Source: Akkermansia muciniphila (lineage in GTDB: Bacteria > Verrucomicrobiota > Verrucomicrobiia > Opitutales > Opitutaceae). From it: 64,000 nt of DNA. The translations under genes were made by a program, and so were the position numbers. Positions within the stretch are counted from its first letter, which is position 1. Each line of letters opens with the position of its first letter. Shown piece after piece: positions 4,941-11,212 of this stretch. The stretch is taken from the NCBI GenBank assembly GCA_945888375.1, contig CAMCZZ010000001.1:124001-188000 (forward strand), written 5' to 3'. The notes below the pieces were generated by a model. That model had not been told where the DNA came from. It was given only the letters and a program-made list of their open reading frames with translations, and ran no database searches.

Positions 4941-4952
4941 TCACGTCTCTTG

Positions 4953-5801
4953 ATGCCGCTCCGCCTCTTGCCGCTCCTCTTTTCTCTGTGCGTGCTGACC
5001 GGGTTCGCCGCGCCGGCGGTGCGCGTCGTATCACAGACGGTGGGTAGCGACGAGTTGCTGCTCGCGGTGGCTGCTCCGGAGCAGATCGCGGCGCTTTCAC
5101 ATCTAGCTTGCGATCCGGATTTTTCCGGGGTGGCCGGCGAGGCTGCGGGGCATGCCCGGATCACGCTTGGCGACGCCGAGACGATCCTGCGTTTCCGTCC
5201 CACCCACGCGATTTTTGCTGATTACAGCCGCGCTGAACTGGTTGGGCAGGTGCGGCGCGCGGGAGTGGAGGTCGTTGTGCTCGACCGCTACAAGACCCTC
5301 GCGGAGGCGCACGCCAATCTACGCCGCATCGCCGCGCTGCTCGGCCCTGCGGCGGAGGCGCGTGCGGAGAGGATTGTCCTGAGCGATGCCGCGCGAATCG
5401 CCGAGCTTCGCGCCAAGCTCCTAGGGGCGAAGCCGGTGCGCGTCATCGCGCCTTCCATCTACGGGGTCATCGCCGGCGCGGATACGACCTTTCAAGACCT
5501 TTGCGAGAACGCCGGGGCGGAGAACCTCGGCGCGACGTTCGGCGGCCTCCGCGGGCACGCCGCATTGCCAGACGAAAAGCTGATCACCTGGCCGGTGGAG
5601 TGCGTGGTGTTGTCCGGCCAAGACGCGGAGCAGGCACTCGCGCCTTACAAAAAGCGACCGCCCTACCAATTTCTGGCGGCGGTGCGCGAGGGGAGTGTCG
5701 CGGTGTTGCCTCCGTGGATGCTGGGTTGCGTGAGCCACCGCCGCGTCGACGCATACGAGGCGCTGGCGCGGGCGCTGCATCCGGAGATTTTCCAGCCATG
5801 A
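4953..5801 (+). CDS. btuF: Periplasmic cobalamin-binding protein, BtuF-like
   Basis: 282 residues from ATG 4953; an in-frame TTG one codon earlier is less likely. The N-terminal signal peptide (RLLPLLFSLCVLTGFAAPA) is followed by a type III substrate-binding fold. Visible family features are the early IAALSHLACDP segment, the VVVLDRYKTLAEAHANLRRIAALLG helix region, and a C-terminal HRRVDAYEALARALHPE helix. It begins 12 bases after btuB and overlaps btuC by four bases (ATGA), so it is co-translated with the importer. Role inferred from family and riboswitch context: it captures cobalamin in the periplasm and delivers it to BtuCD. Confidence 0.87.
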   Translation: MPLRLLPLLFSLCVLTGFAAPAVRVVSQTVGSDELLLAVAAPEQIAALSHLACDPDFSGVAGEAAGHARITLGDAETILRFRPTHAIFADYSRAELVGQVRRAGVEVVVLDRYKTLAEAHANLRRIAALLGPAAEARAERIVLSDAARIAELRAKLLGAKPVRVIAPSIYGVIAGADTTFQDLCENAGAENLGATFGGLRGHAALPDEKLITWPVECVVLSGQDAEQALAPYKKRPPYQFLAAVREGSVAVLPPWMLGCVSHRRVDAYEALARALHPEIFQP

Positions 5802-6772
5802 AAACCGCGCCCCAAGGCTTGGTGGTTGCGGGTTTTTCGCTGCTGCTTCTGCTGGCCGTCTTATCGCTTTCCTTCGGCGACGTGCGCCTTTCGCCCGGGC
5901 AGTTGATCGACGGCCTGCTGCATCGTGATGAGTTCGCCGCGACCATTCTCTGGCAAATCCGGCTCCCTCGACTTCTCGTGGCGGCGCTGGTGGGGGCGGC
6001 GCTCTCGGGCAGCGGGCTTGTGATGCAGGCGTATTTCCGGAACAGCCTCGCGAGCCCGGGACTGCTCGGCGTAAGTGCGGGCGGCGCGGCCGGTGCGGTG
6101 GTGGCCATCGCGCTTGGTCTGGCATCCTTCAGCCTGTTTGCCGTGCCGTTTTTCGCCACTGCGGGCGCCTTCGCGGCGACTCTGGTGGTCCTTCTGCTCG
6201 CGCGTCGCGGGGCGAGCACCGAGCGACTGCTGCTCGCCGGCGTGGCGCTCAATGCCCTGCTCGGTGCGGTCACGAGTTACGTCCTTTCCGCGCACACGCT
6301 TACCTACGAGCGCAACGCCCAGGTGCTTTTCTGGCTGCTCGGCGGATTGGAGGACCGTTCTTGGGAGCATGTATGGATGGCCGCGGCAGTGGTGCCGGGT
6401 GCATTACTGCTCCTGCCGCTGGGACGGCCGATGGATTTGCTTAGCCTAGGCGCGAAGGAGGCCCAGAGCCTCGGCGTGGACGTGTCTCGCCTGCGTCGCT
6501 GGTTGCTGGCGCTCTCCACGGTGCTCACCGCTCTCGCCACTGCCGTCGCGGGCATGGTGGGTTTTGTGGGGCTCATCGTGCCGCATATTCTGCGTCTGAT
6601 CGTCGGGCCGGAGCACCGGCGGCTCGTGCCGCTTTCGCTTATTGGCGGCGCGGTCTTCGTGGTTGGATGCGATCTCGCTGGTCGTGCCGCGGGAGGGCTG
6701 CGGCTTGGCATCGTTACCGCCCTGGTGGGCGGGCCGTTTTTTTTGTGGCAGCTGGGCAGGAGCGAGCGATGA
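5798..6772 (+). CDS. btuC: Cobalamin ABC transporter permease, BtuC/FecCD family
   Basis: 324 residues, hydrophobic throughout, consistent with the roughly ten-helix FecCD/BtuC fold. Family segments include LWQIRLPRLLVAALVGAALSGSG near residues 50-72, a FRNSLASPGLLGVSAGG loop, and VAGMVGFVGLIVPHILRLIVGPEHR near residue 250, the loop that couples to the ATPase. The start overlaps the btuF stop (ATGA) and the stop overlaps the btuD start (ATGA), so BtuF, BtuC and BtuD are translationally coupled. The product forms the inner-membrane channel of the vitamin B12 importer. Confidence 0.93.
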   Translation: MKTAPQGLVVAGFSLLLLLAVLSLSFGDVRLSPGQLIDGLLHRDEFAATILWQIRLPRLLVAALVGAALSGSGLVMQAYFRNSLASPGLLGVSAGGAAGAVVAIALGLASFSLFAVPFFATAGAFAATLVVLLLARRGASTERLLLAGVALNALLGAVTSYVLSAHTLTYERNAQVLFWLLGGLEDRSWEHVWMAAAVVPGALLLLPLGRPMDLLSLGAKEAQSLGVDVSRLRRWLLALSTVLTALATAVAGMVGFVGLIVPHILRLIVGPEHRRLVPLSLIGGAVFVVGCDLAGRAAGGLRLGIVTALVGGPFFLWQLGRSER

Positions 6773-7491
6773 AAACGGCCCTGCGTCTTGAAAACATTTC
6801 CGTGCCGGGCCGTTTGCACGCGCTCAGTCTGTCGGTGGACGCCGGCAAGGTGGTGGGGTTGATCGGTCCAAACGGCTCCGGGAAATCGACGTTGCTCTCG
6901 GTCGCGGCGGGGCTGCCGCCGGGTGCGGCGACGGGCAGGGTGAGCTGGGGCACCGAGCCCGTATCCACTATCGCGGTGCTGGAGCGGGCGCGTCGGGTGG
7001 CATGGGTGCCGCAAGAGGCGCGTTTCGAGTTCGGCTTCACCGTCCGCTCGGTTGTCGCGCAGGGTCGTTACGCGCACGGCGACGATGGCGCTGGAGTGGA
7101 CGAGGCGTTGGCCAGGTTTGACCTGCTTGCCGTCTCCGGGCGGCCGGTCGATCGACTTTCGGGGGGAGAGAGGCAGCGGGTTTTATTAGCCCGCGCGGTG
7201 GCTACAGCCGCCCCTTTGCAGCTTTGGGATGAACCGCTCGCGTCTCTAGATCCACGTCACGGGCTGGAGGTGTTGGCGCTGGCCCGCAGCCTGGCCCGGG
7301 CGGGTGGCACCGTGGTGTTTTCTTTGCACGATTTGCGTCTGGCGCAGGAATTGGATTTTTTAGTGCTGCTGGAGGGCGGTGGTTTACTAGCGGCGGGTGC
7401 TCCGGCCGAGGTATTGACCCCTGACCGAGTGCGCGCGGTTTTCGGGGTGGAGTCGCGTCTGCAGTCCGGCCTGTGTCTTTCGCTTCCTTGA
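6769..7491 (+). CDS. btuD: Cobalamin ABC transporter ATPase, BtuD-like
   Basis: 240 residues. Walker A GPNGSGKST at 33-41, Q-loop in VPQEARFEF near 80, ABC signature LSGGERQR at 130-137, Walker B ending in LQLWDEP at 150-156, and a switch histidine in FSLHD. The length is normal for BtuD/FepC-type ATPases. It is the last clear gene of the riboswitch-controlled operon and overlaps btuC by four bases. The predicted role is to drive cobalamin uptake with ATP at the inner face of the cytoplasmic membrane. Confidence 0.93.
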   Translation: MKTALRLENISVPGRLHALSLSVDAGKVVGLIGPNGSGKSTLLSVAAGLPPGAATGRVSWGTEPVSTIAVLERARRVAWVPQEARFEFGFTVRSVVAQGRYAHGDDGAGVDEALARFDLLAVSGRPVDRLSGGERQRVLLARAVATAAPLQLWDEPLASLDPRHGLEVLALARSLARAGGTVVFSLHDLRLAQELDFLVLLEGGGLLAAGAPAEVLTPDRVRAVFGVESRLQSGLCLSLP

Positions 7492-8230: not shown

Positions 8231-9718
8231 ATGTCCGATCTTTTCGCCGCCTACGAAATTGAGAAATTTTATGATGAGATGTTCGCCGCTCCGGGGCGTC
8301 CGCATCCTCATTACCAGCGGCTCTACGATCGCTTCGGGCAGATGGACGGCATCAGCGACCTGCTCGAGCGCCAGCGCACCGCCGACCAGACCTTCGTCAA
8401 TCGCGGCGTCACCTTCACCGTCTATTCGGATAACAAGGGCACTGAGAAGATTTTCCCCTTCGACCTGATCCCCCGCATCATCCCCGCCCACGAATGGGCG
8501 CACCTCGAGGCCGGCCTGCGCCAGCGCATGGAGGCGCTCAACCTCTTCCTCGCCGACATCTACGGCCCCCAGCGCATCCTCAGGGAAGGCGTCGTCCCCC
8601 GTGAGATGGTGCTGACCTCGAAAAACTTCCGGCCCGAACTGGTCGGCGTGCCCATCGCCCGCGACCTTTACGTCCACATCAACGGCACCGATCTCGTGCG
8701 TGACCAACACGGCACCTATCGCGTGCTGGAGGACAATCTTCGCACTCCCTCGGGTGTCTCCTACGTGCTCGAGGATCGTCAGGTGATGAAACGGGTTTTC
8801 CCGAATCTTTTGCGCGACTACCGGGTGCGTCCGGTCGAGACCTACACCAGCGACCTGCTGGCGCTGCTGCTCCACCTAGCCCCTGCGCACGTGCCCGAGC
8901 CGACCGTCGTGCTGCTCACGCCCGGTGTCTACAACAGCGCCTACTTTGAGCACAGCTTCCTCGCCCGCCAGATGGGTATAGAGATCGTCGAGGGCTCCGA
9001 CCTCGTGGTGGAAAACGACCGCGTCTTCATGCGCCGCACGGACGGTCTCGCGCCCGTCCACGTCATCTACCGCCGCATCGACGACGATTTCCTAGACCCG
9101 ACCGTCTTCAATCCTAAGTCGCTCCTCGGCGTGCCCGGGCTCTTCGAAGCCTACCGCAAGGGCAATGTCGCCCTCTGCAATCCCATCGGCACCGGCGTGG
9201 CCGACGACAAGGCAATGTATCATTACGTGCCCCGGATGATCAAATTCTACCTCGGTCAGGACGCCATCCTGCCGAACGTGGACACCTTCCTTTCCGGCGA
9301 GGCGAAGGACCTCGAATACATCCTCGCGAACCTGGAAAAACTGGTCGTGAAATCGGTCAACGAAGCCGGCGGCTACGGCATGCTGGTCGGCCCCCACAGC
9401 CCCCGCGCTCAGATCGAGGAGTTTCGCGGCAAGATCATTGCCGACCCGCGCAACTTCATCGCCCAGCCCACGCTCGGGCTCTCCCGCTGCCCCGCCGTGT
9501 GCGGCGACACCATCGAGGGCCGCCACATCGACCTGCGCCCCTACATCCTGAACGGCCCCACCATCAAGATCATGCCCGGTGGCCTCACTCGCGTCGCCCT
9601 GCGCAAGGGCAGCCTGGTGGTCAACAGCTCCCAGGGCGGCGGCTCGAAGGACACCTGGGTCCTCGCCGCCGACCACGAGGCGGTCACGCCGGCGGTGCCG
9701 GAGAAAATCATCGTGTGA
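8231..9718 (+). CDS. Circularly permuted ATP-grasp protein (DUF404/DUF407 type)
   Basis: 495 residues. Recognised by the family's sequence course: [22 protein letters not shown] near the start, [25 protein letters not shown], the [19 protein letters not shown] segment, and the C-terminal [11 protein letters not shown] ... [29 protein letters not shown]. Proteins of this family are usually encoded beside an alpha-E protein, as here, and are thought to form amide bonds, possibly on peptides; the substrate is unknown. The start at 8231 was chosen because conserved sequence begins there. An inserted four-helix-bundle gene separates it from its usual partner. Confidence 0.93.
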
Positions 9719-9738
9719 CCGCGCAACGCGCTCACACG

Positions 9739-10204
9739 AAATGACCAATGACCCAGCCGGCTACGATCAACTATGACTTGTTTGAGCGCACCGCTCTGTT
9801 TGGGAAAAACGTGATCGAGTGCTGTCTCGCCCTTCCCGCTACGCTGATCACGTCCCCGCTCATCACCCAATTCGTCAAATCCGGCTGCAGCTTGGGCGCG
9901 AATTACGGTGAAGCCGATGAAGCTGAATCAAAACCGGATTTCCGCCATAAGATCGCTCTTTGTCGCAAGGAAGCCAAAGAGACCATGCACTGGTGCCGCA
10001 TGCTGGCCAAGGTGTCCGGCAAGCAGACTGAGAAACTGCGCGAACTCTGGAAGGAAGCCCACGAGCTTCACCTCATTTTCTGCAAGATCATCCGCACCAC
10101 CGACGCAAACCTGCGTCGTGAACGAACCGTCAAGAAAACCTCTACCGCCAAACTCTAACCCCCCGCGCCTGCATTGGTCATTGGACATTGAACCTTGGTC
10201 ATTT
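9739..10204. mobile_element. Four-helix-bundle cassette bounded by inverted TGACCAATGACC repeats
   Basis: The left end at 9739-9753 reads AAATGACCAATGACC. The right end at 10173-10204 reads, on the opposite strand, AAATGACCAAGG followed by AATGTCCAATGACCAAT. These inverted copies bracket the four-helix-bundle gene, whose start codon lies inside the left repeat. The unit is wedged between two genes that normally adjoin, the ATP-grasp and alpha-E genes. This looks like an inserted cassette; no transposase is present. Confidence 0.55.
9748..10158 (+). CDS. Four-helix bundle protein (23S rRNA IVS-encoded type)
   Basis: 136 residues, all-helical in appearance. It matches the four-helix bundle/S23 family by the course LFERTALFGKNVIECC, then SGCSLGANYGEADEAESKPDFRHKIALCRKEAKET, then a final helix pair with EAHELHLIFCKIIRTT. 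Members are found inside 23S rRNA intervening sequences and as free-standing genes, and resemble the Avd protein of diversity-generating retroelements; their function is not settled. No reverse transcriptase or template repeat is nearby. The start ATG 9748 is inside the left flanking repeat; an overlapping ATG at 9741 is in another frame. The basic tail (RRERTVKKTSTAKL) would suit nucleic-acid binding. Confidence 0.9.
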   Translation: MTQPATINYDLFERTALFGKNVIECCLALPATLITSPLITQFVKSGCSLGANYGEADEAESKPDFRHKIALCRKEAKETMHWCRMLAKVSGKQTEKLRELWKEAHELHLIFCKIIRTTDANLRRERTVKKTSTAKL

Positions 10205-10219
10205 GCGCGCAGCCGCACC

Positions 10220-11212
10220 ATGCTCTCCCGCGTTGCCAACCTCATCTACTGGATCGCCCGCTATCTCGAACGCGCCGAAAACACCGCGCGCATCGTCGAG
10301 GTAAACGCCCAGCTCGTGCTGGACCTCCAGTCCCGCCAGGACGCCGACGATCCCCGCGCCTGGGAGCCCCTCGTGTTCGTGACTGGCTCCGACGAGCAGT
10401 TTCATGCGCTCTACGGCGGGAAGATCACCGAGCGCGCCGTCATCGAGTTCATGCTCTTCGACAAGCGCAACCCGTCCTCCGTGCTCTCCTGCGTCGGCTT
10501 CGCCCGCGAGAACGCCCGCTGCATCCGCGACCAGCTCTCCACCGAGTTGTGGGAGACCATCAACACCTTTTTCCTGCGGCTGAAGGACGACGATTTCACC
10601 CGCTACGCCCAGCTCGGCTCGACCGACTACCTCGCCTGGATCAAGGCCCAGACCCAGCTATTCCACGGCGTCGCCGAGGCCATGCTGCCCCGCGATGACG
10701 GCTGGTGGTTCTACAGCCTCGGCCGCCACCTCGAGCGCGCGGACAACACCTCCCGCATCCTCGACATCAAGTATTTCATGATCCTGCCCAGTGTGCAGGC
10801 CGTCGGCTCCGCCCTGGACATGGTGCAGTGGGCCTCCGTGCTCCGCTCCTGCTCCGCCTTCGAGGCCTTCCGCCGCTCCCGCCGCGGCGACCTCGACCTC
10901 GTCCGCGTCGTGGATTATCTGGTTCGTGACGAGTCTTTTCCCCGTAGTATCCTCTATTCAGTCGCCGAGGCAGAGCAGTGCCTGGTCCGGATCGGGGCCG
11001 GCGACGGCGAGGCCCCTGTCGCTGCCGTTCACGACCTCGTCCGCTCGCTGCGCGAGGATCTGGAGAACGCCGACACCAAGTCCGTCATCGCCGCCGGGCT
11101 CCACGAGTATCTCGACGGCCTCCAGCTTCGCCTGGAAAAGATCCACAACGCTATCCAGGCGGCCTACATCCATCACGGCCGCCCCTCGTTTCAGCTCCAG
11201 GGGCAGGTCTGA
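10220..11212 (+). CDS. Alpha-E domain protein (DUF403), partner of the ATP-grasp protein
   Basis: 330 residues, helical. It opens with the hallmark MLSRVANLIYWIARYLERAENTARIVEVN, and repeats a similar motif at GWWFYSLGRHLERADNTSRILDIKYF, as alpha-E proteins do. The family is nearly always encoded with a circularly permuted ATP-grasp protein and often with a transglutaminase-like protease; the latter is absent here. Its biochemical role is unknown but is presumed to belong to a peptide-modifying or amide-forming system. The start at 10220 is placed where the conserved region begins. It is separated from the ATP-grasp gene only by the four-helix-bundle cassette. Confidence 0.95.
   Translation: MLSRVANLIYWIARYLERAENTARIVEVNAQLVLDLQSRQDADDPRAWEPLVFVTGSDEQFHALYGGKITERAVIEFMLFDKRNPSSVLSCVGFARENARCIRDQLSTELWETINTFFLRLKDDDFTRYAQLGSTDYLAWIKAQTQLFHGVAEAMLPRDDGWWFYSLGRHLERADNTSRILDIKYFMILPSVQAVGSALDMVQWASVLRSCSAFEAFRRSRRGDLDLVRVVDYLVRDESFPRSILYSVAEAEQCLVRIGAGDGEAPVAAVHDLVRSLREDLENADTKSVIAAGLHEYLDGLQLRLEKIHNAIQAAYIHHGRPSFQLQGQV

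Follow-up and report, generated by a model that had tools for sequence, protein, structure and literature searches.

The question raised by positions 9739 to 10204 of the window, by which we mean the whole 64-kb stretch of DNA analyzed here, is what kind of unit a small four-helix-bundle (FHB) gene forms with the short repeats at its two ends, lying as it does between two genes that are usually adjacent elsewhere. The FHB gene (9748-10158, + strand) encodes a protein of 136 aa that matches PF05635 (E 3.8e-10) and TIGR02436 (E 1.2e-15), and Pfam identifies its neighbors as a circularly permuted ATP-grasp gene (CP_ATPgrasp, 8231-9718, + strand) upstream and an Alpha-E gene (10220-11212, + strand) downstream, so that all three genes are on the same strand. 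Two arrays built from a single 7-bp unit, AATGNCC, frame the FHB gene in inverted orientation to each other. The left array, AAATGACCAATGACC, lies at 9739-9753 on the + strand with its AATGACC units at 9740-9753, and it is complementary to the right array, CATTGGTCATTGGACATTGAACCTTGGTCATTT, at 10172-10204 on the - strand, in which Tandem Repeats Finder detects 4.6 copies with a period of 7 (10172-10203). The two arrays form inverted pairs of 14 nt (9740-9753 with 10176-10189, 93% identity), 11 nt (9740-9750 with 10172-10182, 100%) and 10 nt (9739-9748 with 10195-10204, 100%). The FHB start codon at 9748 falls within the second left heptad, and 15 nt separate the end of the right array from the Alpha-E start codon. 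The first-pass annotation of this DNA had described the gene as bracketed by inverted repeats (9740-9753 and 10172-10203 in our analysis), inserted in the ATP-grasp/Alpha-E pair, started from within the repeat and accompanied by no transposase, and all of this holds: among the eight neighboring ORFs tested between 4950 and 15101, Pfam finds no transposase family and no reverse transcriptase family, and three of these ORFs have no Pfam match.

The FHB protein is modeled by AlphaFold as a confident helical bundle (mean pLDDT 94.2). In structure it comes closest to 2RLD, a protein of the S23 family (E 1.7e-4) that sequence search finds too (2.2e-11), and to XCC0516, 2GSC (5.3e-3). These are followed by Avd (4DWL) and chains of diversity-generating retroelement (DGR) ribonucleoproteins, with TM-scores of about 0.6-0.8 and weak E-values of 0.28-0.44; in a profile search the Avd model gave no match for the window protein. 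An Rfam scan of the window reveals no rRNA and yields only one tRNA and one cobalamin riboswitch, the latter at 2557-2746, upstream of a Peripla_BP_2/FecCD/ABC gene set at 4950-7491. The best explanation, to which we give a probability of roughly 0.6, is that window 9739-10204 is a minimal mobile cassette like the intervening sequences (IVS) of 23S rRNA, belonging to a widespread class and living in operon transcripts; in this reading the class consists of one Avd/S23p-like FHB gene between inverted arrays of a degenerate, lineage-specific 7-bp unit. This explanation builds on the arrangement itself, its aggregate generality, polymorphism at orthologous sites, a remnant, gene-free array pairs and near-identical copies in two genomes.

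Chains of two AATGNCC units (at most one mismatch in 14) occur in the 64-kb window only at these two arrays, and 20 shuffles of it gave six in total. Across the genome (3.22 Mb, 39 contigs), a three-unit pattern of 18 bases with at most three mismatches has 35 matches, compared with 2 when the pattern is reversed as a control; besides single arrays, the 35 include inverted pairs without a gene on contigs C4 and C11. The genome encodes two PF05635 genes, and the second, located between PAPS_reduct and GTP_EFTU genes (Pfam) at a site that we take to be cysD/cysN-like, has inverted repeats of another unit, CTTCGAC/TTTAGAC, at both ends. The idea that the same flanking repeat would surround other FHB genes therefore needs to be divided, since the 7-nt period and the inverted layout recur and the heptad sequence differs.

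How general this frame is was determined from the flanks of 110 FHB loci, namely the 30 best-scoring loci of the window family (the GTDB family of the window genome, in which 164 of 200 genomes have PF05635 matches) and the best 80 among the loci listed by a scan of GTDB genomes. Selection was by protein score and took no account of repeats, and the loci represent about 16 phylum-level groups by record title; 103 of them, from about 15 groups, were usable after six short or frame-broken loci and one containing N were dropped. Identity at a lag of 7 nt reaches 0.404 in the left and 0.376 in the right flanks and peaks again at lags 14 and 21; the value for 196 distant windows is 0.252. The mean inverted arm score is 35.3 for a locus's own arms, 15.2 for arms of other loci and 19.1 in direct orientation; the own arm outscores every one of 40 arms from other loci in 61 of the 103 cases and at least 38 of the 40 in 84. 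In direct orientation 13 of 103 loci exceed the 99th percentile of the cross scores, against 61 when inverted. The control gene Alpha-E shows no inverted signal (14.8 vs 14.4, n=28), and its lag-7 identity is slightly raised (0.309) because its left flank is the same site. Under a strict threshold, which 0.87% of 691 control windows pass, at least one arm qualifies in 34 of 73 loci worldwide, in 10 of 51 from the window family and in 15 of 27 from cyanobacteria; both arms qualify in 15, 0 and 9 of these, respectively, a yield that is limited by the degeneracy of the heptad units. In the order of the cyanobacterium Gloeocapsopsis, the gene is present in 73 of 100 genomes, and heptads are visible by eye in many of 30 loci. 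A conserved-peptide scan of 2.9 million viral contigs found 48 FHB loci; in 47 of them (one was dropped; same query) lag-7 identity is 0.377 versus 0.256 at five other lags. One query found no match among 50,697 phage records, and with so few viral matches phages do not look like a main carrier. At six hand-picked FHB sites (the window, L001, L075, L086, L089 and L099) the downstream gene, identified by Pfam, is co-directional, and none of 131 FHB loci contains either of two conserved 23S motifs. The same frame with another heptad around FHB relatives in many bacterial groups makes the locus look like a minimal mobile cassette.

Two other observations concern related genes. On plasmids 1 and 2 of Calothrix brevissima NIES-22, S23 genes (L361 and L362, both with 61.5% query match) share one gene order, each with a gene of the phage integrase family next to it. 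Genes of the GxxExxY type (PD-(D/E)XK superfamily), with matches in 102 of 120 family genomes and five in G000, are also found within inverted repeats (L226 in G005, L228 in G003, and L240-L269). Their own arms score 38.1 versus 19.6 across loci and rank first in 13 of 29; their repeat unit is 8-9 nt by eye, and strict detection gives period 8 in six, period 9 in seven and period 7 in none of 29.

The arms of the window cassette pair imperfectly in the predicted RNA fold, and the stability of the fold over the whole cassette is ordinary (z -1.24). Outside a 14-nt seed, the arms of 44 loci match at 0.362 in register and at 0.349-0.377 when shifted by 7 or 14 nt, and those of 58 loci at 0.408 and 0.376-0.421, respectively, compared with 0.25-0.27 at shifts of 4. 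This equal fit at 7- and 14-nt shifts rules out a strict stem as the sole explanation and indicates that the arms behave as motif arrays.

The sequence of the heptad changes with lineage and even between copies within one genome, and by eye one site followed across genera has related heptads with both arms changing together. At one shared site, for example, the unit is TTGAAAG in three loci (L088, L096, L181), TTGAGAG in L195 and TCGAGAG in L079. Heptad similarity correlates with protein similarity worldwide (Mantel r 0.15, 60 of 73 loci, 0 of 2000 permutations), in the window family (r 0.656, 42 of 51 loci, 0 of 2000) and in cyanobacteria (r 0.292, 22 of 27 loci, 1 of 2000), a correlation that is no proof of recognition, because joint inheritance gives it too. 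One region of G005 contains neighboring arrays that belong to different heptad families (L290, L302).

Cassettes have been gained or lost at orthologous sites. At the ATP-grasp/Alpha-E site, we compared 30 Alpha-E loci, the best among those of 57 genomes, and 28 of them were readable by eye (L045 and L060 were left out): eight have the FHB gene with arrays, seven within the genus and one in another genus, one has a shortened, internally deleted remnant, two have gene-free array pairs and 17 have neither. Relatives with an empty site, which the first-pass annotation had called for, are therefore at hand, and its view of gene and arrays as one unit is supported by their joint presence or absence in most readable genomes, with the two arrays-only sites and the remnant as exceptions. 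In the congeners G008, G009 and G010 the site is free of both insert and heptads, so gene and arrays go together there. Between dapB and ruvA (DapB and RuvA identified by Pfam), a gene-free array pair is present in G000, G006, G007, G012 and G013, ambiguous in G001, and absent from G002, G004, G010, G011 and G014; G003, G005, G008 and G009 were unreadable and left out of this comparison. At the cysD/cysN-like site, inspection by eye reveals the FHB cassette in G000 and G006 and gene-free pairs in several genomes, with a short spacer in a few, and G003 and G005 hold a GxxExxY gene with its own inverted repeats.

The insert-free sites also bear on the idea that heptad runs are simple repeats, arising by polymerase slippage or kept for G-quadruplex formation, in which FHB genes happen to settle. 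Rehm et al. (2015, PMC4692102) describe the G-rich heptamers of Xanthomonas and Nostoc as simple repeats generally without a link to mobile elements. We consider this origin very improbable for the present cassettes, in view of the lack of heptads at the empty sites of G008, G009 and G010, of end arrays that are inverted and more alike than those of other loci, and of a unit, AATGNCC, that has no G-runs of the quadruplex kind.

At the window site, dN/dS of the FHB gene is 0.07-0.17 in 14 of 15 pairs, the fifteenth (G000-G036) having saturated dS; G005 is excluded from these pairs, and dS is high in most of them. Judged from these ratios, the gene is under purifying selection, and the copy in G036, with an in-frame stop after the first ATG, may be impaired. 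Related cassettes at the same sites across genera, as seen by eye, argue for long residence. Neither a target duplication, another point raised by the first-pass annotation, nor a terminal repeat outside the heptads is visible by eye at the window site or those of the congeners. The proposal of a self-contained mobile unit is thus favored by polymorphism of the sites and weakened by purifying selection and by the fact that the clearest multi-copy cases lie inside elements with conventional terminal inverted repeats (TIRs).

These multi-copy cases come from G271 and G289, two genomes of a cyanobacterial order, where conventional elements of two different TIR families carry the FHB-heptad core and the TIRs of the mobile copies lie outside the heptads. 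In G271, a 576-bp unit occurs in two places with 99.8% identity and an 18-bp perfect TIR; the target duplication is 10 bp at L355 and matches at 8 of 10 positions at L356. In G289, 11 copies were aligned, with the TIR TAACTGAYGTTACGCA; the longest pairwise alignments mostly have 95-99% identity, and pairs with L348 as well as L344-L360 often have 85-90%. By eye, NTAA, in which the first base alone varies, is duplicated in six of seven G289 copies (not in L346), and copies L343 and L349 differ on the 5' side. Such copies could mean that the FHB gene and its heptads are in general the cargo of non-autonomous transposons (MITEs), with subterminal heptads and with a host insertion-sequence transposase moving them, and the shorter G289 copies (175-436 bp) agree with it, for they have no intact FHB gene and keep their TIRs; L391 and L384 retain heptads at each end, and L397 and L398 at one. 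As an account of the window cassette we find this quite unlikely: here and in the congeners there is no terminal repeat outside the heptads and no target duplication visible by eye, and the same core within two unrelated TIR families suggests that the core is the older unit.

A hairpin, TCGTGTGACCGCG / CGCGCTCACACGA, at 9711-9739 (+ strand) of the window spans the ATP-grasp stop codon and abuts the left array, and similar hairpins are found at several filled sites. With a score of at least 8, a hairpin lies beside 9 of 67 arrays and 0 of 66 controls, and in several cases it is an inverted copy of the 3' end of the upstream gene (L001 at 1395-1439; sites L202 and L204). No such hairpin was seen at the insert-free G011 and G014 sites. 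The array-adjacent hairpin is not a general feature of the cassette.

Arrays without a gene bear on a different explanation, in which the FHB protein is a sequence-specific post-transcriptional regulator, the heptads at its own gene serve autoregulation and other copies before start codons form a regulon. Of 54 AATGNCC arrays sampled at listed positions in G000, G005, G009 and G010, none of them next to a window-type FHB gene, 29 have an ORF (100 aa or longer) whose ATG lies within 60 nt on one side; on the other side the count is 3, and after a shift of 100 nt it is 7. This asymmetry speaks for a regulator; purifying selection on the FHB gene fits as well, and for TAACTGA heptamers located just before start codons a post-transcriptional regulator has been proposed (MacGregor 2015, PMC4679880). 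G-rich heptamers near start codons are described for Xanthomonas and Nostoc too (PMC4692102). The number of AATGNCC matches (at most two mismatches) in 15 congeners, however, ranges from 8 in G014 to 632 in G012 (0-2 when the pattern is reversed as a control); what is inserted at the three sites (ATP-grasp/Alpha-E, dapB/ruvA and cysD/cysN-like) varies from one congener to another; and G001 (38 matches) and G011 (13) have arrays without any PF05635 match, which also counts against the cassette reading. A regulatory role of this kind is unlikely in our view. In G012 and G013 (369 matches) the AATGNCC expansion is large, with the two strands about equal.

For the cassette that we favor, a working mechanism can be outlined. 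The FHB protein would recognize its own heptads as repeated binding sites, and the paired arms would let the insert be tolerated within the host operon, perhaps by being cut from the mRNA in the way that RNase III cuts the 23S rRNA IVS. For its spread the cassette, in which no known catalytic domain is encoded, would depend on machinery borrowed from elsewhere, and orphan heptad arrays would represent either remains of such cassettes or their by-products.

Several known systems share parts of this organization. Our cassette resembles RAYT/REPIN systems and MITEs in having one gene within inverted repeats and, elsewhere in intergenic DNA, scattered repeats that lack the gene and occur singly or in pairs. 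It differs from them in that the framed gene (PF05635) has no transposase domain and is not a Y1 tyrosine transposase, and in that each repeat is made up of an array of 7-bp units, with a unit sequence that varies by lineage. The TIRs and target duplications expected of a MITE or an IS-mobilized element are found in the G271 and G289 relatives, whereas neither is found by eye at the window site. With Avd of DGRs the window protein shares a related fold (4DWL and DGR ribonucleoprotein chains, with weak E-values), and the resemblance of PF05635 to Avd has already been published (PMC10053308); unlike DGR Avd, the window gene has no reverse transcriptase family among the eight neighboring ORFs and no match to the Avd model.

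Heptameric intergenic repeats have been described as TAACTGA in Beggiatoaceae, cyanobacteria and Bacteroidetes (PMC4679880), as GGGAATC and GGGGA(C/T)T in Xanthomonas and Nostoc (PMC4692102), and as the heptanucleotide elements GGGACCG and MTYCTGA in Geobacter (PMC2700814). The window arrays resemble these as tandem 7-bp units that are intergenic and near start or stop codons, and differ from the published ones in forming the ends of a gene cassette. Cyanobacterial STRR are further heptameric intergenic repeats. For Xanthomonas and Nostoc a strand rule is described, with G-rich repeats on the coding strand after stop codons and on the other strand before start codons (PMC4692102); the strand bias of the FHB arms (of 103 loci, 80 have G>C in the left arm and 84 have C>G in the right arm) fits this rule in most cases, whereas the window unit AATGNCC, being C-rich on the left, is an exception and contradicts it. 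The terms S23 and (four) helix bundle have no matches in the main texts of PMC4679880, PMC4692102 and PMC2700814, and among the open-license PMC matches listed no paper ties FHB/PF05635 genes in general to heptads, although such a report may be in print elsewhere.

The closest comparison is with the 23S rRNA IVS, a kinship that the first-pass annotation had suspected and that the account of Coxiella burnetii in PMC4990558 bears out with the same protein family, heptamers and paired ends. According to that account, tandem heptamers, GACAGAT, precede the start of the S23p ORF, the ends of the IVS form a 28-bp stem at which RNase III cuts, and mobility of the IVS is already one of the hypotheses proposed (PMC4990558). 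The window cassette agrees with this IVS in its S23p/PF05635 ORF, its heptamers, its paired ends and its sporadic distribution; its arms are terminal inverted repeats that can pair in RNA, imperfectly and without being register-specific across loci. It differs in lying between two protein genes instead of in a 23S rRNA gene and in its heptad, AATGNCC instead of GACAGAT, and excision by RNase III would apply here by analogy. By the same analogy the window cassette can be read as the same kind of element as the 23S rRNA IVS, living in an operon. Both the 23S IVS and bacterial heptamers have long been described, and the cited papers agree on no origin or mode of spread for them. The 7-nt period and inverted layout beside PF05635 genes, present in three samples when each is taken in aggregate and absent in control windows, tie the two together, and the observation is part of something larger than had been supposed at first. 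The cassette class may account for the orphan 7-letter repeats reported in bacteria. The PF05635 link names a testable protein and predicts binding of cognate heptads and RNase III-dependent transcript ends at the arms, and the cassette reading predicts gain and loss at the named orthologous sites. More tentatively, it is possible that FHB proteins form a very large family of heptad readers, in which the 7-nt word of a lineage would mark both cassette ends and targets before start codons, and that a single system, spreading without a transposase of its own, would include as its branches the 23S IVS, the heptamers of Beggiatoa, Xanthomonas, Nostoc and Geobacter, and perhaps also Avd.
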